Assembly (NCBI RefSeq): GCF_012184425.1
Contig: NZ_VTOW01000010.1
Span: 1 to 52,500, forward strand
DNA: 52,500 bases
From: Candidatus Manganitrophus noduliformans
GTDB taxonomy: Bacteria; Nitrospirota; Nitrospiria; SBBL01; Manganitrophaceae
Direction: 5' to 3'
Below the pieces are notes generated by a model. It made no database searches. It worked only from the letters and a program-made list of their open reading frames with translations, and was not told the DNA's origin. Position 1 is the first letter of the stretch. Every line of letters begins with the position of its first letter. Below, piece by piece: positions 19,996-29,345 of this stretch. Both the position numbers and the translations under genes were made by a program.

Positions 19996-21402
19996 TTAAG
20001 CGGCCACCAGCTCCTTCAGCGCCGCCGTGATCTTTTCCACGGTTCCCTTGGCGTCCCCGAAAACCATCATCGTGTTGGGACGGTAGAAGAGGGCATTGTC
20101 GATTCCAGCGAAGCCGGGGTTCATGCTCCGCTTGATGACAATGACCGTCTCGGAGTTTTCCACGTCCAGAATCGGCATGCCGTAAATCGGGCTGCTCGGA
20201 TCGGTCTTCGCGGCCGGGTTGACGACGTCGTTCGCGCCGAGGACCAGCGAGACCTGGGTCTGCGGAAATTCGGGATTGATGTCGTCCATGTCGATGAGCT
20301 GGTCGTAGGGGACGTTCGCCTCGGCCAGAAGAACATTCATATGGCCGGGCATCCGTCCGGCGACCGGATGGATCGCATATTTGACCGTTTTCCCCTCTCT
20401 CTCAAGAAGGTTGGCCAATTCCCGAACGGCATGCTGCGCCTGGGCGACCGCCATTCCGTAGCCGGGGACCATGATCACCTGCTTCGCCGCCTTGAAGGCC
20501 TCGGCGGCTTCTTTCGGGCTGCCGCTCCAGACCTTCGGCTTCTCGGCGGGGGCGCCCTGGGCGCCGGGGGCCGCCGGGGCGGGGGCCTGGACCTGTCCGA
20601 AGGCGCCGAAGAGAACGTTGGTCAAAGAGCGGTTCATCGCTTTGCACATCAGGTTCGAGAGAATGATTCCCGAAGAGCCGACCAGCGCCCCGCTGATGAT
20701 CAAGACATCGTTGTGAAGGACGAAGCCGCTCGCCGCCGCCGCGATTCCCGAATAAGAGTTGAGCAGGGAGATCACGACCGGCATATCGGCCCCCCCGATC
20801 GGGAGGACGACGAGGACGCCGAGCGCGGCCGCGAGAATCGAAAGGGCGATAAACGCCGGAAGGCTTCCCGGCGAGACGATCAGATAAACGAGCAGACCGA
20901 GGGAGGCGACCCCGAGCACCGCATTCAAGGCGTTCTGGCCCGGGAAGACGACGGGGGCGCCGCGCATCAGCTCTTGCAGTTTGGCGAAGGCGATCACGCT
21001 GCCGGTCAGGGTGACGGCGCCGATCAAGACGGTGAGGCCGATCGTGAGCATTCCGGCCGCGTTGATCTCCGGCATGGTCCGAAGATACTCCGCGCCCCCG
21101 ACGAAGGCGGAGGCGATCCCCCCGAAGCCGTTGAGGAGGGCGACCATCTGCGGCATCGCGGTCATCTGGATCTTTGTCGCCAGGACCGCTCCGATCGCGC
21201 TGCCGATCACGATTCCGGCGATGATCCAGGTGAAGCTGACGACCTCCCTTTGGAGAAGGGTCCCGACGATCGCCAACAGCATTGCGATCTGCGCGAGAAA
21301 CATCCCCCGCTTGGCGGTGGTCGGCCCACTCAGATATTTCAGCCCAAGGATGAAAAGGACCGAAGCAATGATATAGAGAATTTCAATGAGATAAGTAGCC
21401 AC
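19996..21402 (-). CDS. pntB: Proton-translocating NAD(P) transhydrogenase subunit beta
   Basis: PntB carries the NADP(H)-binding domain III and half of the membrane channel of the enzyme that reduces NADP+ with NADH at the expense of proton-motive force. The 468-residue protein has about nine membrane helices up to residue 270, an Ala/Pro-rich linker (PAPAAPGAQGAPAEKP), then domain III with the fingerprint VPGYGMAVAQAQ and the conserved HPVAGRMPGHMNVLLAEA, VLGANDVVNP and KRSMNPGFAGIDN segments. Start is GTG at 21402 (MATYLIEILY) after AGGAGGGGG. It is the last gene of pntAA-pntAB-pntB, with the pntAB stop nine bases upstream. Confidence 0.96.
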   Translation of the reverse strand: MATYLIEILYIIASVLFILGLKYLSGPTTAKRGMFLAQIAMLLAIVGTLLQREVVSFTWIIAGIVIGSAIGAVLATKIQMTAMPQMVALLNGFGGIASAFVGGAEYLRTMPEINAAGMLTIGLTVLIGAVTLTGSVIAFAKLQELMRGAPVVFPGQNALNAVLGVASLGLLVYLIVSPGSLPAFIALSILAAALGVLVVLPIGGADMPVVISLLNSYSGIAAAASGFVLHNDVLIISGALVGSSGIILSNLMCKAMNRSLTNVLFGAFGQVQAPAPAAPGAQGAPAEKPKVWSGSPKEAAEAFKAAKQVIMVPGYGMAVAQAQHAVRELANLLEREGKTVKYAIHPVAGRMPGHMNVLLAEANVPYDQLIDMDDINPEFPQTQVSLVLGANDVVNPAAKTDPSSPIYGMPILDVENSETVIVIKRSMNPGFAGIDNALFYRPNTMMVFGDAKGTVEKITAALKELVAA

Positions 21403-21411
21403 ACCCCCTCC

Positions 21412-21693
21412 TTATTGCTCTTGCTTTCTGAACATCTTCAGCATCCGGTCGGTCACCATGAACCCGCCGACCACGTTGATGGTCGCGAAGATCACCGCCA
21501 GAAAGCCGAGGATGGTTGAAAGATCGGTTTGTTCCGTTCCGGCGGCAATGATGGCGCCGACCACCGTGATTCCGGAGATCGCGTTCGATCCCGACATCAG
21601 CGGGGTGTGAAGCAGCGGCGGAACCCGAAGGATCACTTCATAGCCGAGGAACGTTGCCAGAACGAAAATGGTGATCGAGGTCAATAACTCCAT
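21412..21693 (-). CDS. pntAB: NAD(P) transhydrogenase subunit alpha, membrane part
   Basis: This 93-residue protein is the membrane fragment of the alpha chain found as a separate subunit in three-subunit transhydrogenases such as that of Rhodospirillum. It has three hydrophobic helices and the conserved motif GYEVILRVPPLLHTPLMSGS followed by NAISGITVVGAI. TAGGAGA precedes the ATG. It is 10 bases from pntAA and nine from pntB. Confidence 0.95.
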   Translation of the reverse strand: MELLTSITIFVLATFLGYEVILRVPPLLHTPLMSGSNAISGITVVGAIIAAGTEQTDLSTILGFLAVIFATINVVGGFMVTDRMLKMFRKQEQ

Positions 21694-21703
21694 TGCATAT
21701 CTC

Positions 21704-22855
21704 CTATTTGCCCATCGCCTGCTTTACGACGGGATGGACCACCTCTCCTTGATGGGTCACCATCGATCCTTTGATGATTTCGTCGTTGACGTCAAGCTTG
21801 AGGGTTTTGTTGGCGTAGAAAAGAGAGAGAAAATTGAACATGTTTTTGGCGTACATCTGGCTGGCATGCACCGGGACGGTGCTCGCAAGGTTGGTCGCGC
21901 CGATGATCGTCACCCCCTGCTCGACGACCTCCTGGCCGATCCGGCTCAGCTCGCAGTTTCCCCCCTGCTCCACCGACATATCGATAATGACCGATCCCTT
22001 TTTCATCTCTTTGACCATGTCGGCCGTGATCAGGAGGGGGGCCTTCTTGCCGGGGATCAATGCGGTCGTAATGACGAGGTCGGCCCCTTTGACATGCTGA
22101 TGGATCAGCTCTTTTTCTTTTTTGTAGAATTCCGCGGAGAGCTCCTTGGCATATCCTCCCGCGTCTTCCGACTGTTCATGGCCGAGGTCGAGCTCGACGA
22201 ATTCGGCCCCGAGGCTCTTAACCTGCTCCTTCACCGCCGGGCGGGTGTCGAAGGCTTCAACCGTCGCCCCGAGGCGCTTTGCGGTGGCGATGGCTTGCAG
22301 CCCGGCGACCCCGGCCCCGATGATCAGGGCTTTCGCGGGGGGAAGGGTCCCCGCGGCGGTGGTCATCATGGGGACCATCTTTCCGAATGCGGCGGCCGCC
22401 AAAAGAACCGCCTTGTAACCGGCGATGCTCGCCATCGAGCTTAAGACGTCCATCCGTTGGGCGCGGGTGATTCTCGGAATAAGATCGGCGGCGAGGGCCG
22501 TCACCTTTCGGGCGGCGAGCCGTTGAACCGTCTCGGGATAATTCAACGGTTGAAGCAGGGAGGTCAGGATCGCCCCCTCCTTCATCATCTCGGTCTCGTG
22601 TTTTCCAAGCTTTTCGTTTTGAAGCGGTCGCTGGATTTTGAAAATAAGATCGGCATCCGTATACACCGCGGCGGCGTCGGAGGCGATTTTGGCGCCGACT
22701 TTTTCGTAGTCGGCGTTGGGGAACATGGCTGCCGCGCCGGCATCCGATTCGACCCAGACCTCCAGTCCCGCTTTGACCATTTTGTCGACCGTCTCGGGAG
22801 TCGCGGCCACCCGCCGCTCTCCGGCCAGAATTTCCTTAGGGATCGCTACCTTCAT
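21704..22855 (-). CDS. pntAA: NAD(P) transhydrogenase subunit alpha, NAD-binding part
   Basis: PntAA is the soluble NAD(H)-binding domain I, related to alanine dehydrogenase. The 383-residue protein starts with MKVAIPKEILAGERRVAATP. The Rossmann fingerprint is IIGAGVAGLQAIATAKRLGA (about 175-195) and the NAD-contacting segment RITRAQRMDVLSSMASIAGY is present. The GGYAKELSAEF and SVEQGGNCELS segments are typical. Length matches the Rhodospirillum-type subunit. GAGGA lies before the ATG, and its own promoter lies 43 bases upstream of the start. Neighbouring genes of related function are described at 23062 and 28524. Confidence 0.96.
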   Translation of the reverse strand: MKVAIPKEILAGERRVAATPETVDKMVKAGLEVWVESDAGAAAMFPNADYEKVGAKIASDAAAVYTDADLIFKIQRPLQNEKLGKHETEMMKEGAILTSLLQPLNYPETVQRLAARKVTALAADLIPRITRAQRMDVLSSMASIAGYKAVLLAAAAFGKMVPMMTTAAGTLPPAKALIIGAGVAGLQAIATAKRLGATVEAFDTRPAVKEQVKSLGAEFVELDLGHEQSEDAGGYAKELSAEFYKKEKELIHQHVKGADLVITTALIPGKKAPLLITADMVKEMKKGSVIIDMSVEQGGNCELSRIGQEVVEQGVTIIGATNLASTVPVHASQMYAKNMFNFLSLFYANKTLKLDVNDEIIKGSMVTHQGEVVHPVVKQAMGK

Positions 22856-23014: not shown

Positions 23015-23043
23015 GGGAGGCCTTCACTTTTAGAAGGCCTCCC
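23015..23043 (-). terminator. Strong stem-loop after the 1244-residue oxidoreductase gene
   Basis: An 11-bp perfect stem GGGAGGCCTTC/GAAGGCCTCCC (23015-23025 and 23033-23043) with a seven-base loop sits 19 bases after the stop. The following minus-strand bases TTCGATTCTTCCTCTTTTT are T-rich but interrupted, so termination may be partial. Confidence 0.6.
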
Positions 23044-23061: not shown

Positions 23062-26000
23062 TTAAACTCGGTGGAGCGGTTTTTTCTTCAGCAGGTAATC
23101 GAGCCATAAATTCGTCAGTTTTTCCTGGACGGAATTCTGTTTGAGGCGGGCATTCAAATTCGGGAAATCGACTTCGTCCATCTTCTGGTCCTGGTTGTAG
23201 CAGGTGAAGACCGGCTCGAGCTGCGCGCCGGTTTTGGGATCGATCTGCCGCTGCAGGCACTGGGCGCAGACCTCCTTCATCATGCACTGCATGGTGGAGT
23301 TGATCGAGGCGATCGCCGTGTGGTTTTCCCTGAAATAAGATTTCAGGACGGTATGGCGGGCCCGGCTGACCGCCGCCATCATCCGATCGGAGCCGATGGC
23401 GATGATCCGGTCGGCGTCGCGAAGGGGAACGGCCGTTTCGCCCAGCTTTCCCTCGCCGTAGGCTTGCATCGCCTGGAGAATGTTTCCGACGAAATTTTTA
23501 TCCTGAGGCCGCCGGGGCTGCGTCGCCGGGGCGATGTCCGAGCTCCAGACGATGACATCGGAAGCCATCTCGATGTCGTCCATTTTGAAAACATCGGCTC
23601 CATTTTTGTAGCCGGCGAAGTAGATGACCTTGTTTCCCTTGGCGCGGAGCGCTTTTCCGATGGAGAAGAGGACGGCGTTGCCGAGGCCTCCCCCCGCCAA
23701 GACGACCGTCTCACCCCCCTCCGGAATATGGGTGGGGCAGCCGGTCGGTCCCATCACGACCACCGGCTCGCCGATCCGCAGGGCGGCGCAGAGACGGGTG
23801 GAGTGGCCGAGCTCCAGGGCGATCAATGAAAGAAGCCCCGCCTCTTTATCGACCCAGGCGCCGGTGAGGGCGATTCCCTCCATCGACAAACGGGTTCCTT
23901 CGATGACGGGTGATTCGATTTCATAGTTCTGAAGACGGTAGAACTGGCCCGGCTCGAACTTCTGCGCCTGCAAGGGGGCCTTCACCACCACCTCGACGAT
24001 CGTCGGGGTGAGTCGGTTCACCTGGTGGACGCGGGGCATGCAGCTTTCCTCAAGGGTCTGCGCCAGCGTCATGAATTGCGTTTCACGCGCCGGCTGTTTG
24101 GCGGGATCGATCGCGGCGATCTCTTTCTCGAAGAGTTTGACGACGTAGGGATAGCCCTTCTTCGCCGACGCCATCGCCTTGACGACGTTCCCGGCATAGA
24201 TCGGGTGATTGTCTCCGTAGAAAGTGATGTAGCGCCCTTCGTTCTGATAGGAGGTGAAGAGGCTCGGGACGTCGGTGGCGACGGTATCCCATCCTTCAAT
24301 TTGAATCAGCTCCGGCTCGGGCTTTCCGTTCCACTTCGGCTCGTATTTCTGGAAAAACTTGTTCTTCTTGTCGAGCTGGAAAGTTCCGGGCCATTCTTTC
24401 TCGTAGATGATGTTGGGAGAGGTCCCGGCCGCCACGAAGACGCTCCGCGCCGGGAAGGGGATGATCTCACCCGAGCCGCGCCACTTTCCCTTCTCGTCTT
24501 TTTTCTGACGCTCGAAGGTGACTTCCTTGACGGCGCCGTGTGCGTCGGGAACACACTCCACCGGGCTCATGTTCTCGACGAAAAAGATCCCCTCTTCGAA
24601 CGACTTGACGATTTCTTCATGATTCAGCCGATAAGCCGGGGAGTCGGACAGGCTCTTTCGATAGAGAATTGAGACCCCGCCCCAAGACCGGACCAACGGG
24701 GTGAAGTCGGGCTCTTCCCTCGCCTCGGCGGCCCGCGCCCGTTCGCGCCGGCATTCTTCTGCGTGGGTGAGGAACTCTTCCAAGATCTCTTTTTCCTCCG
24801 CGTCGTACATCGACCAGATCTGCTCATCGCCGAACTCCCGGCGGAGGGCCTCGTAACGCTCCCGGATCTTTTCCACCTGCAGCGGATAGTAGGCCATCAG
24901 CTCCGTCGCGGTATCGGTCGCGGTCAAGCCCCCGCCGATCACGATCGCCGGCAGCCGCACCTGAAGGTTCGCCATGCTGCTCCGCTTGGCCGCGCCGGTC
25001 AGCTGGAGCGCCATCAGGAAGTCGCTCGCCTTTCGGACCCCGCGGATCAAATTATTTTTCATTTCGACGATGGTCGGGCGTCCCGCCCCGGTGGCGACGG
25101 CGATGTGGTCGATGCCGAGCCGCCAGGCGTCCTCGATCGTCAAGGTCCCGCCGAACCGGACCCCGCCGTAGACCCGGAAGTGGGCGTTTCGGACGAGGGA
25201 GAGGTAGATCAGCTTCAAAAAGTTTTTGTCCCACCGGACGGTGATGCCGTACTCCGCGACCCCGCCGAATCCGGCCATGATCCTCTCGTCGAGCGATTCG
25301 TAAATTTCGGAGACCCACTCGATCGGTTTGGGAGGAGCGCTTCCATTGCCGACCCATTCCTTCGGAAGCGGCTCGATCTTCAAGCCGTCGATTCCGAGGA
25401 CGCCGAATCCTTCATTCAGGAGATACTGGGCCAGGGTGAAACCGGCCGGACCCATTCCGACGACCAGGACCGTTTTCCCGTGGAAGGGGAGGGGATAGGG
25501 GCGCTTTACGTTGAGCGGATTCCAGCGGGTGAGAAGGTTGTAGATTTCAAAGCCCCACGGCAGATCGAGACAGTCGGTGAGCATTCGGGTCTCGATCTGG
25601 GGGATGTTGACCGGCTCCTGTTTTTGATAGACGCATCCCTTCATGCAATCGTTGCAGATCCGGTGGCCGGTGGCGGGGATCGTCGGATTGTCGATCATCA
25701 TCGTCGCGAGCGCCCCGATCGTCGCGCCGTCCCGCTTCAGCAGCTGGGCTTCCGAGATCTTCTCATCGAGCGGGCAGCCGGTCAGGGGGATGCCGAGGGG
25801 GTTCTCTCTGATTTTTCCGTCCTTCTCGATGAAGCCTTTGGAGCAGGAATCTTTCTCCCGCTCATGGCAGAAGATGCAGTAGTGGACCTCGTTGAAGACC
25901 TGCCGGAGATCGAAACGGGGGTCGGTCAGAACGAACCCGTCCCGCCGTCGCCGGTGCTCTTCCGGTCCCTGGATCGCTTCGGGGAGATCTTCTTTGATCG

Positions 26001-26796
26001 GGCGGGTCTCCACCAGATGCATGAAGTCGATCTTCTCCGGGAAACGGAACGAGACCCACTCTTTGACGCGGGCCTTCGCATCGGGCCGATGGGCATGGAG
26101 GGCGACCCACTGCTCCGGAATCTGAAGGAGGCGCGTGGCCGCTTCGGCCGCCGTCGGGATTGAATCGAGTGCAGAGGGGGAAGGAAGACGGTCTTCAAAA
26201 AACGGGCGGCGCGCCGGATCGCTCCGGAGCAGGTCGCAGATTTCGGCGAGCCGCTTCCGGCCCGGCTCGGCGTCGACCTGCTGCTGCCCTTTGGCCTTTC
26301 GGATCAGATCCCGCTCGATCTCCATCAACTGAACCGCGGCGACGGCGATCGACCGCTCGCGGTCTCCTTGCACCTGGGGGGCGATGACCGCTTCCAAGAT
26401 CTCCATCTGACGATCGAGCTTTTTGAGGTCGAACTCCGCCACGGCGGAAGAAGGGATTGCTTTCAACGCCCGCTTGATCACGAAATCGCGCTTGAAGTCG
26501 AAAATCGGCTTTTCAGCCTCGGCCCGTTGTACTTCTACGGAGAGGGCCGGCTCGATTCGAAAGAGGCGCGAGACGAATCGGTCCAGGTGGGGAGCGAGCG
26601 CCACGATCAGGTTCGATTCGTCGACGGGGGAGATCTCTTTTCCCCCGCTTTCACGGTATGCCGCGTAGCTTCGGCCGAGATCGGGATCGGACGCTTCAAC
26701 CGATCGGTAAAACATTTCCGCCAGTTCCTTCAGCCGAAGGGGATCATAGAGGTCGGCGTAACTCCATCCTTCGATCCCAAGAGACAACGTATTCAT
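23062..26796 (-). CDS. Fused GltD/NfnB-like and PyrK/NfnA-like FeS-flavin oxidoreductase, 1244 aa
   Basis: Two enzyme halves that are normally separate subunits appear in one chain. Residues 1-300 are helical, charged and unassigned. Residues 305-395 form a GltD-type FeS entry domain with Cys307, 310, 318, 341 and Cys381, 384, 388. FAD and NAD(P) sites follow at VVGMGPAG (445-452) and VIGGGLTATDTA (619-630), with a long charged insert near 640-700. Residues 915-1160 look like a ferredoxin-NADP reductase: EPGQFYRLQNY (948-958), GPTGCP (1016-1021) and LAGGGLGN (1033-1040). The C-terminal Cys1171, 1177, 1180 and 1199 fit a PyrK-like [2Fe-2S] site. In NfnAB/SudAB the two halves exchange electrons among NADH, NADPH and ferredoxin; here that reaction is inferred. 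The best AGGAGG lies 13-14 bases from the ATG, a little far. Confidence 0.8.
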   Translation of the reverse strand: MNTLSLGIEGWSYADLYDPLRLKELAEMFYRSVEASDPDLGRSYAAYRESGGKEISPVDESNLIVALAPHLDRFVSRLFRIEPALSVEVQRAEAEKPIFDFKRDFVIKRALKAIPSSAVAEFDLKKLDRQMEILEAVIAPQVQGDRERSIAVAAVQLMEIERDLIRKAKGQQQVDAEPGRKRLAEICDLLRSDPARRPFFEDRLPSPSALDSIPTAAEAATRLLQIPEQWVALHAHRPDAKARVKEWVSFRFPEKIDFMHLVETRPIKEDLPEAIQGPEEHRRRRDGFVLTDPRFDLRQVFNEVHYCIFCHEREKDSCSKGFIEKDGKIRENPLGIPLTGCPLDEKISEAQLLKRDGATIGALATMMIDNPTIPATGHRICNDCMKGCVYQKQEPVNIPQIETRMLTDCLDLPWGFEIYNLLTRWNPLNVKRPYPLPFHGKTVLVVGMGPAGFTLAQYLLNEGFGVLGIDGLKIEPLPKEWVGNGSAPPKPIEWVSEIYESLDERIMAGFGGVAEYGITVRWDKNFLKLIYLSLVRNAHFRVYGGVRFGGTLTIEDAWRLGIDHIAVATGAGRPTIVEMKNNLIRGVRKASDFLMALQLTGAAKRSSMANLQVRLPAIVIGGGLTATDTATELMAYYPLQVEKIRERYEALRREFGDEQIWSMYDAEEKEILEEFLTHAEECRRERARAAEAREEPDFTPLVRSWGGVSILYRKSLSDSPAYRLNHEEIVKSFEEGIFFVENMSPVECVPDAHGAVKEVTFERQKKDEKGKWRGSGEIIPFPARSVFVAAGTSPNIIYEKEWPGTFQLDKKNKFFQKYEPKWNGKPEPELIQIEGWDTVATDVPSLFTSYQNEGRYITFYGDNHPIYAGNVVKAMASAKKGYPYVVKLFEKEIAAIDPAKQPARETQFMTLAQTLEESCMPRVHQVNRLTPTIVEVVVKAPLQAQKFEPGQFYRLQNYEIESPVIEGTRLSMEGIALTGAWVDKEAGLLSLIALELGHSTRLCAALRIGEPVVVMGPTGCPTHIPEGGETVVLAGGGLGNAVLFSIGKALRAKGNKVIYFAGYKNGADVFKMDDIEMASDVIVWSSDIAPATQPRRPQDKNFVGNILQAMQAYGEGKLGETAVPLRDADRIIAIGSDRMMAAVSRARHTVLKSYFRENHTAIASINSTMQCMMKEVCAQCLQRQIDPKTGAQLEPVFTCYNQDQKMDEVDFPNLNARLKQNSVQEKLTNLWLDYLLKKKPLHRV

Positions 26797-27378: not shown

Positions 27379-28524
27379 TCACCTTCCCGAATATCGGCTG
27401 ACCCCGCCGAAGGTCCCGAACCATTTGTTCCCGTCGGGGTCGATCGCAATCGAATAGACGTAATCTCCTAAAAGGCCGCTCATCGTGTTAAAGTTTTTGA
27501 AGCTCTTCCCGTCGAACCGGCTGACCCCCTTATTGGTGCCGATCCACATCACCCCTTGTTTGTCGATCTCGATGGCGTTGACGATGTTTCCCGCCAGACC
27601 GTCGGCGGTCGTGTAGTTTTTGAAGCGCTTTCCGTCGAAACGAGAAAGCCCTCCCCCCCAGGTCCCGAACCATTTGGTCCCTTCGCCGTCGATCGCCGAG
27701 GAGATGACATAATTGGGGTTGGCCTCTTGATTTTCTTTTCGGTCTTGCTGGTGATGCGCCGGTCCCTCTTCATATTCATCGCCGGACGGCGGACGCGCTT
27801 TCGAATTCCCCACCGCGGCGCCGAGACCGTCGCGGTGGGTCCATCCCTTCATCGTTTTTCCGTCGAACCGGTTCACCCCTCCCTCGGTGCCGAACCAGAG
27901 GACTCCGGAGGGCTCGCGCTCGATCGTATAGACCCACTTATCGACCAAGCCGTCGTCCATCGTATAGGTCACAAAACCTTTTCCGTCGAAGCGGCTCGCC
28001 CCTTTCCAGGTGGCGACCCACATCGTTCCGTTCGGCTCGAAGAGGAGGTCATACACCCAGAGGTCCCCCAATCCGTTTTTCGGATTGTACAGGACCCACT
28101 CGGGGCCATACGTCTTCGGGCCCCGTCCATAGGGGGTAAAGTGCTCCCACGCGCCGCCGTCGAACCGGCTCAGCCCGCCGCCGTAGGTGCCGATCCAAGC
28201 GGACCCTTTCGAATCGAAGCGAATCGAGACGACCACGTTCGACAGGAGCCCCGACTTCGTATTGTAGATCTGATGCGTCTCGCTTTTCCGATTGAATCGG
28301 ATCAGGCCGTTCGACGTCCCGATCCAAACCTCATCCCCTTGGACGGCCAACGCCCGGATTACCACCTGGCCGATCTGCCAGCCGGTCCAGAGGGAGGCCG
28401 CTTCGGGGGGGGGAAGGGGCTGCCCCCGGCCGATCCCGGCGGCCAAAAGGAGAAGGGTCGCGGAAAGAAATACAACCCGGCGGAGGAAAGCGGCCGTCTG
28501 GAGCGATCCGTTGCGATCGGGCAT
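27379..28524 (-). CDS. Exported Reg_prop (two-component-regulator-type) beta-propeller protein
   Basis: The start at 28524 (MPDRNGSLQTAAFLRR) shares one base with the nadK stop (TAATG) and has GGGGAGAGGG upstream. A signal peptide (VVFLSATLLLLAAGIGRG) leads into about 340 residues of repeated propeller blades with words such as VWIGTSNGLIRFN, AWIGTYGGGLSRFDG, MWVATWKGASRFDG, LWFGTEGGVNRFDG, KWFGTWGGGLSRFDG and MWIGTNKGVSRFDG. This is the Reg_prop repeat known from the sensor part of hybrid two-component systems, but here without any kinase, so it is probably a free periplasmic binding protein. A hydrophilic insert (PPSGDEYEEGPAHHQQDRK, about residue 245) interrupts the fifth blade. Confidence 0.88.
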   Translation of the reverse strand: MPDRNGSLQTAAFLRRVVFLSATLLLLAAGIGRGQPLPPPEAASLWTGWQIGQVVIRALAVQGDEVWIGTSNGLIRFNRKSETHQIYNTKSGLLSNVVVSIRFDSKGSAWIGTYGGGLSRFDGGAWEHFTPYGRGPKTYGPEWVLYNPKNGLGDLWVYDLLFEPNGTMWVATWKGASRFDGKGFVTYTMDDGLVDKWVYTIEREPSGVLWFGTEGGVNRFDGKTMKGWTHRDGLGAAVGNSKARPPSGDEYEEGPAHHQQDRKENQEANPNYVISSAIDGEGTKWFGTWGGGLSRFDGKRFKNYTTADGLAGNIVNAIEIDKQGVMWIGTNKGVSRFDGKSFKNFNTMSGLLGDYVYSIAIDPDGNKWFGTFGGVSRYSGR

Positions 28525-29345
28525 TATCCCTCTCCCCATTTCAATTTTTGCCGGAGGACCTGATAATAATTCCGATGGGGGGATTGGATTAATTTCAGCC
28601 GCCGCTCCGAGGCCTCGATATGGACGATGTCGTTTTCTTCCAGGGGAAAGATCTCTTGCCCGTCGACCGTGACGTGGGGGCCCTTCTCGGCGGTTTTCAA
28701 AACAACATCGACCGCCACGCTAGAAGGAATGATAATCGGACGATTGGTCAGCATATGGGGGGAGATCGGGGTGAGAATGACGGCATCGACAGATGGGTGA
28801 ACGATCGGCCCGCCGGAGGAGAGCGAATAAGCGGTGGAGCCGGTGGCGGTGGCGATGATCAGACCATCGGCCCGCAGCGCGGTGACGAATTGGTTGTTGA
28901 TGGTGATCTCCAGCTTGATCAGCTTCGCCAGCGTTCCATGGCCGACGACGATATCATTTAAGACCCGCGGTTGAGGGATCTCTTTCCCACCGCGCCGGAT
29001 AAACGATTTGAGCATCAAGCGCGGGTCGAGGACATACTGGTTTTTGAAAATTTTCTCGAGGGTCGGATAGAGCTCATCCAGAGTGACCTCCGTCAAAAAA
29101 CCGAGGCTGCCGAGGTTCACTCCGAGGATCGGGATATCGAGCGCTTCCACCAATCGCGCCGCCGAGAGGAGGGTTCCGTCTCCCCCGAGGACGATGAGCA
29201 TGTCGAGGGAGCGCGGGATGGTTTTCTTGGCGACATCGATCATGAGGGCTTCTTTTCCCTGTTGCTGAAGCCAGGGGATCAGCTTCTCAAGGACGGCCTT
29301 CCCTTTGGGATGATCGGGCTTTAAGACGATGCCGATTGTTTTCAT
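28524..29345 (-). CDS. nadK: NAD kinase
   Basis: NadK phosphorylates NAD to NADP using ATP or polyphosphate. The 273-residue protein has the hallmark GGDGT (residues 54-58), the second conserved region VNLGSLGFLTEV, the NDIVV segment, and ADGLIIATATGSTAYSLSSG followed by GGPIVHP for the nucleotide pocket. The ATG at 29345 has no clear ribosome site. It heads an operon with the propeller protein and the 83-residue protein and lies close to two enzymes that handle NADPH (pnt and the fused oxidoreductase), a sensible clustering. Confidence 0.96.
   Translation of the reverse strand: MKTIGIVLKPDHPKGKAVLEKLIPWLQQQGKEALMIDVAKKTIPRSLDMLIVLGGDGTLLSAARLVEALDIPILGVNLGSLGFLTEVTLDELYPTLEKIFKNQYVLDPRLMLKSFIRRGGKEIPQPRVLNDIVVGHGTLAKLIKLEITINNQFVTALRADGLIIATATGSTAYSLSSGGPIVHPSVDAVILTPISPHMLTNRPIIIPSSVAVDVVLKTAEKGPHVTVDGQEIFPLEENDIVHIEASERRLKLIQSPHRNYYQVLRQKLKWGEG

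Follow-up and report, generated by a model that had tools for sequence, protein, structure and literature searches.

A conserved single-chain Nfn-like oxidoreductase with a four-cysteine [2Fe-2S] motif and a helical N-terminal module in Candidatus Manganitrophus noduliformans

A single open reading frame in the genome of Candidatus Manganitrophus noduliformans encodes one polypeptide in which an NfnB-like and an NfnA-like half follow an all-helical N-terminal module, and this chain is likely to couple NADPH, NADH and ferredoxin in the manner of Nfn; as an explanation of the protein as a whole, we rate this reading somewhat better than even. The frame lies on the minus strand of the window, by which we mean the entire stretch of 52,500 nucleotides that was analysed (contig NZ_VTOW01000010.1), and occupies positions 23062-26796, with its ATG at 26796-26794, its stop at 23064-23062 and 1244 codons that contain no internal stop. 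The first-pass annotation had described one chain of 1244 residues carrying motifs at named residues, and both the intact frame and the motifs were found as described. The features to which we refer are the following.

23065-26796, minus strand: the whole single-chain Nfn-like oxidoreductase, 1244 residues (open reading frame, family and relative comparisons)
26047-26796, minus strand: all-helical N-terminal module, residues 1-250 (predicted fold; PRK06567 shares part of it)
25774-25878, minus strand: first [4Fe-4S] cysteine motif, residues 307-341, C-x2-C-x7-C-x22-CPL (conserved cysteines)
25591-25656, minus strand: second [4Fe-4S] motif, residues 381-402, C-x2-C-x3-C and then Glu402 (conserved cysteines and glutamate)
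24880-25479, minus strand: FAD Rossmann domain with the first part of the NADPH domain, residues 440-639
25234-25236, minus strand: Arg521, putative position at N5 of the bifurcating FAD (alignment with Nfn)
24685-24885, minus strand: conserved, charged insert of the NADPH domain, predicted as a helical hairpin, residues 638-704
24127-24684, minus strand: end of the NADPH domain (YRK...PAYR) and remainder of the FAD domain, residues 705-890
23317-24054, minus strand: NfnA/PyrK-like ferredoxin-NADP-reductase half, residues 915-1160
23182-23304, minus strand: [2Fe-2S] motif, Cys 1171, 1177, 1180 and 1199 followed by NQDQ, residues 1165-1205
23015-23043, minus strand: 11-bp hairpin 3' of the gene with a T-rich tail behind it, resembling a terminator
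19996-22855, minus strand: proton-translocating transhydrogenase genes pntAA (21704-22855), pntAB (21412-21693) and pntB (19996-21402), downstream
28524-29345, minus strand: NAD kinase, upstream

Sequence searches of the PDB return Nfn subunits as the best matches of the chain (5jca_S, E 4.8e-22), and Pyr_redox_2 is the sole Pfam family above its cut-off. The best NCBIfam model is PRK06567 (NF005128; E 1.5e-195), with an alignment that extends over the greater part of the chain and takes in some of the N-terminal module; at 652 bits the chain does not reach the curated cut-off of 1072 bits, and the model has 1031 positions against the 1244 residues of the chain. Judged by these scores, the chain is related to PRK06567 but falls outside its curated group. 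The product name given by NCBI is 'bifunctional glutamate synthase subunit beta/2-polyprenylphenol hydroxylase'.

A full-length structural model was made on a homologue of 1188 residues that is 58% identical to the window's chain (L066), and it reached a pLDDT of 90.2 and a pTM of 0.91, a value that lends confidence to the predicted positions of the parts with respect to one another, in an arrangement that need not equal that of NfnAB. The middle part of this model matches the large subunit of Pyrococcus furiosus NfnI (5jfc_L; Z 27.4, rmsd 2.8 over 443 residues), the C-terminal part matches Thermotoga maritima NfnA (4yry_C; Z 13.9, rmsd 2.5, 259 of 265 residues), and further matches are 4ylf_A (TMt 0.88) and 5jca_S (TMt 0.87). 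Hence, the ferredoxin-NADP-reductase-like half that had been proposed for residues 915-1160 is borne out by the match to 4yry_C and by that of the sequence to 5jca_S. The large charged insert that had been noted near residues 640-700 is likewise present, at about 638-704, and is predicted to form a helical hairpin, with helices at 584-615 and 626-652 of the modelled homologue.

The residues expected to hold cofactors are those under the strongest conservation. The seven GltD-type cysteines that had been read from the sequence were found (307, 310, 318, 341, 381, 384 and 388), as was the PyrK-type four-cysteine end (1171, 1177, 1180 and 1199), and by sequence this pattern of eleven is more than chance, because each of them is kept in 97-100% of 80 aligned chains and the other seven cysteines of the chain are conserved less. 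The two anticipated Rossmann nucleotide motifs read GMGPAG (447-452) and GGGLTA (621-626). Glu402 is invariant and matches the glutamate of the Nfn/GltD motif Gx2ER. The cysteine spacings are altered relative to Nfn: the first motif is C-x2-C-x7-C-x22-C as opposed to C-x2-C-x4-C-x3-C, with an insertion of about 20 residues, and the second is C-x2-C-x3-C as opposed to C-x5-C-x3-C. Arg521, in GGVAEYGITVRWDKNF, is invariant and aligns to Arg201 of P. furiosus NfnL, which we take to be the residue at N5 of the bifurcating FAD. An arginine at this position is conserved in all Nfn homologues (PMC6405883). The GltD of the same genome has lysine there (YGIPDFKMEK). Dihydropyrimidine dehydrogenase also has an arginine at N5 of its FAD, and thus this residue is necessary but not sufficient for an assignment to Nfn. 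In the second half, Thr978 at the second FAD and the nucleotide motif GGGLGN are retained, as is the YR of the NADPH site, and the a-FAD motif ERxPxT reads EGIALT, which keeps the glutamate and the N5 threonine and loses the arginine and the proline.

The main departure from Nfn concerns the [2Fe-2S] cluster, whose motif, C-x5-C-x2-C-x18-C followed by NQDQ, includes no aspartate in the window's chain or in its homologues; all 38 of the C-termini compared have four-cysteine ligation. The corresponding NfnA motif, DGTGMCGxCRx10CV, is well conserved, with aspartate as an atypical ligand that has been tied to the potential of +80 mV used in the exergonic branch (PMC6405883). Our comparison of aspartate and cysteine uses this published motif and a weak alignment of the last cysteine with T. 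maritima NfnA, because a profile of the last 145 residues gave no meaningful match in the PDB. By its likeness to PyrK, the four-cysteine cluster would have a lower potential than the aspartate-ligated one of NfnA, and such a shift may retune or abolish bifurcation.

Set beside NfnAB/NfnI (5JCA, 5JFC; 4YLF, 4YRY), the chain has both subunit folds, the seven cysteines and the glutamate for two [4Fe-4S] clusters, the N5 arginine, and the NADPH and NAD motifs, but here these stand in one polypeptide with the NfnA half at its C-terminus, an extra N-terminal module, a helical insert, cysteine in place of aspartate at the [2Fe-2S] cluster and changed spacings for both [4Fe-4S] clusters. The earlier proposal of a fused NfnB-like and NfnA-like chain therefore stands, but a straight assignment to NfnAB does not, given the cysteine for aspartate, EGIALT and the insertion of about 20 residues; because of the four-cysteine cluster and EGIALT, we rate the protein as Nfn-like in its working rather than as a true Nfn. 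Residues from about 283 to 890 would work like NfnB, with NADPH, a bifurcating-type FAD and two [4Fe-4S] clusters leading to ferredoxin, and residues 915-1244 would work like NfnA, with a second FAD, the [2Fe-2S] cluster and a site for NAD(H). The chain would most likely couple NADPH, NADH and ferredoxin within one polypeptide, in either direction, and the helical module and insert probably shape the ferredoxin entrance or an oligomer. What these comparisons establish is the sequence, its conservation, the predicted folds and the retained ligands; true bifurcation, the cofactor content, the substrates, the direction and the role of the N-terminus are inferred from them.

We favour the Nfn-like reading because the Nfn subunits are the best PDB matches in sequence and in the modelled fold, the ligands and the N5 arginine are conserved, the fusion itself is conserved, a homologue in Acidithiobacillus caldus has fdxA as its neighbour, and the genome encodes 2-oxoacid:ferredoxin oxidoreductase. 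Against it stand the missing aspartate ligand, EGIALT, the lack of a conserved neighbour in 80 loci, two myxobacteria with no match to 2-oxoacid:ferredoxin oxidoreductase, the loss of GGGLGN from the NfnA half of the A. caldus homologue, and the many aerobic carriers, bifurcating enzymes being reported as nearly absent from aerobes (PMC6085437). Several of these points would suit an NAD(P)H-driven reductase or transhydrogenase that does not bifurcate. In such an enzyme both FADs and the clusters would form one serial path for electrons, ending at ferredoxin or another partner, and the all-cysteine [2Fe-2S] cluster would be a low-potential relay as in PyrK. The uniform four-cysteine ligation, PyrK-like rather than NfnA-like, the partial loss of ERxPxT and the broad occurrence in aerobic lineages agree with such an enzyme, but the N5 arginine and both nucleotide sites are kept and both halves fit Nfn subunits over almost their entire length, and we consider a series reductase possible, though clearly less probable than Nfn-like coupling.

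The name PRK06567 and the match to GltD folds (Z 25-26) could instead indicate a GltD-type subunit that feeds electrons into glutamate synthase or another partner enzyme. This is very unlikely: the genome has a separate gltB-gltD pair elsewhere, the gene studied here has no gltB-like neighbour, its FAD N5 residue is arginine and not lysine, and a PyrK/NfnA half with an NAD site has no place in GltD. GltD and dihydropyrimidine dehydrogenase resemble the chain in fold across its [4Fe-4S], FAD and NADPH regions (Z 22-26); both lack an NfnA/PyrK half. The NfnABC/StnABC enzymes (9BOV, 9N5U, 8OH5) share an NfnB-like core (Z 21-24) but have other subunits and another domain order, and belong to a different class of bifurcating enzymes.

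That the fusion is conserved in relatives is evident within the genus and order, where seven other genomes encode the full-length chain with no internal stops, at 57-98% identity across relatives, and two further genomes have a gene interrupted only by contig ends. Beyond these, at least 567 candidate loci in named genomes encode a relative of the chain; the best 80 of them come from Acidobacteriota, Myxococcota, Methylococcales, Ignavibacteriota, Planctomycetota, Armatimonadota and Acidimicrobiia, and among 79 loci in unrelated assemblies almost every one has an uninterrupted single frame. The carriers include the aerobes Methylococcus, Methylomonas, Myxococcus and Pyrinomonas. The DNA of Candidatus Manganitrophus GAC4 (L034) is about 85-92% identical over most of the region, a kinship that puts the window within Manganitrophaceae. 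In GAC4 the gene (G003:C1:665823-669581) is divided between reading frames and contains one TGA, and pntB is likewise interrupted; both breaks are most likely assembly errors. That two genes were joined by misassembly or a frameshift, as the split GAC4 gene might suggest, has a negligible probability and is rejected, since the frame is intact in the seven other relatives and in nearly all of the 79 unrelated loci, across independent assemblies.

A homologue tree, built by a quick method with a midpoint root, is ordered mostly by phylum, with 12 changes as compared to 42 in shuffles, and places the window's chain near others of its own order, on a long branch. A copy in another genome of the same genus (L008, G004:C3) is just 61% identical and falls, with support 100, among sequences from another family of the order, so that the copy in the window may have had a different history.

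Fused Nfn homologues with a C-terminal NfnA half were described in 2019 as 'Pattern C' and were reported as uncharacterised (PMC6405883). The description of this pattern (Mobiluncus curtisii type) matches our chain in its single gene, in the C-terminal position of its a-FAD, NAD and [2Fe-2S] domains, and in being at least about 200 residues longer than Pattern B fusions. The fused domain order is of an already known kind; new, with Pattern C compared by description alone, are the helical module, the four-cysteine cluster and how widely the family extends among aerobes. In the literature we found no functional test of the single-chain family.

The N-terminus of about 300 residues that had been left without assignment is predicted to form a helical module of about 250 residues with no recognised relative. 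Modelled on their own with 76 homologues, residues 1-300 come out as all-helical (pLDDT 93.3, pTM 0.82). We found no Pfam family for the module, and the best matches in a PDB sequence search (E 1.1), in Foldseek (E 1.7) and in VIA-align (Z 5.1, a helical bundle, below a meaningful level) carry no weight, so that a known domain is rejected; such a lack of matches to a predicted fold is no proof of a new one. A stand-alone protein of this kind is also rejected, the module being present only within the fused gene in 12 genomes.

Together with the pnt genes, the NAD kinase gene makes this an NADP(H)-themed stretch. Between the NAD kinase gene and the Nfn-like gene lies a gene for a two-component-regulator-propeller protein (27379-28539), whose frame overlaps that of the NAD kinase by a few bases. 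The hairpin with its T-rich tail separates the Nfn-like gene from pntAA, and only some genomes of the genus show the adjacency to pnt (G004 has the fused gene and pntB on separate contigs); we thus reject a pnt linkage as a general rule. Across the 80 loci, where ORF calls are crude in GC-rich contigs, no gene neighbour is conserved. The strongest hint of a partner, toward ferredoxin, comes from A. caldus plasmid pTcM1 (L113, NC_010600.1), on which the homologue lies 149 bp behind fdxA. The gene run of this plasmid (4132-11024) encodes a fumarate-reductase-like flavoprotein, a small 2[4Fe-4S] protein, a HEAT-repeat protein, FdxA and the Nfn-like chain, and the proteins of this operon have no match within the examined flanks of the other loci.

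The reverse TCA cycle of Manganitrophus-type bacteria needs reduced ferredoxin, for which an unusual complex I (complex I_3) working in reverse has been proposed in a paper whose main text does not mention NADPH (PMC9040806). Plausibly, the Nfn-like chain in Manganitrophus would provide reduced ferredoxin for CO2 fixation from NADPH supplied by PntAB, and we propose that PntAB and the chain are, in addition to complex I_3, a second candidate means of obtaining low-potential ferredoxin. Two strong POR_N loci are present in the genome, one of which reads as a 2-oxoacid:ferredoxin oxidoreductase gene set, and no NfnA-like match above the family cut-off occurs elsewhere in it. A universal link to 2-oxoacid:ferredoxin oxidoreductase is rejected, as two myxobacterial genomes that carry the fused gene have no match to that enzyme. 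The gene is widespread in heterotrophs and methanotrophs, with these two myxobacteria among its carriers, and such a distribution suggests that its role is more general.

With at least 567 loci, many of them from aerobic lineages, that combine most hallmarks of bifurcation with a changed [2Fe-2S] ligand set, the family bears on two questions: how common bifurcation is among aerobes, and whether the aspartate ligand is needed for it. The boldest extension of our reading is that aerobes contain a large family of bifurcating transhydrogenases, so far overlooked, whose single chains combine an all-cysteine [2Fe-2S] cluster with a helical module that is new, and whose members in relatives of the manganese oxidiser would turn NADPH made by PntAB into reduced ferredoxin for the reverse TCA cycle; we offer it tentatively, as rather unlikely to hold in its entirety. 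Elsewhere in the same genome (L111, G000:C5 near 319381) there are genes that resemble those for the gamma, beta and small subunits of a sulfhydrogenase-type soluble NiFe hydrogenase.
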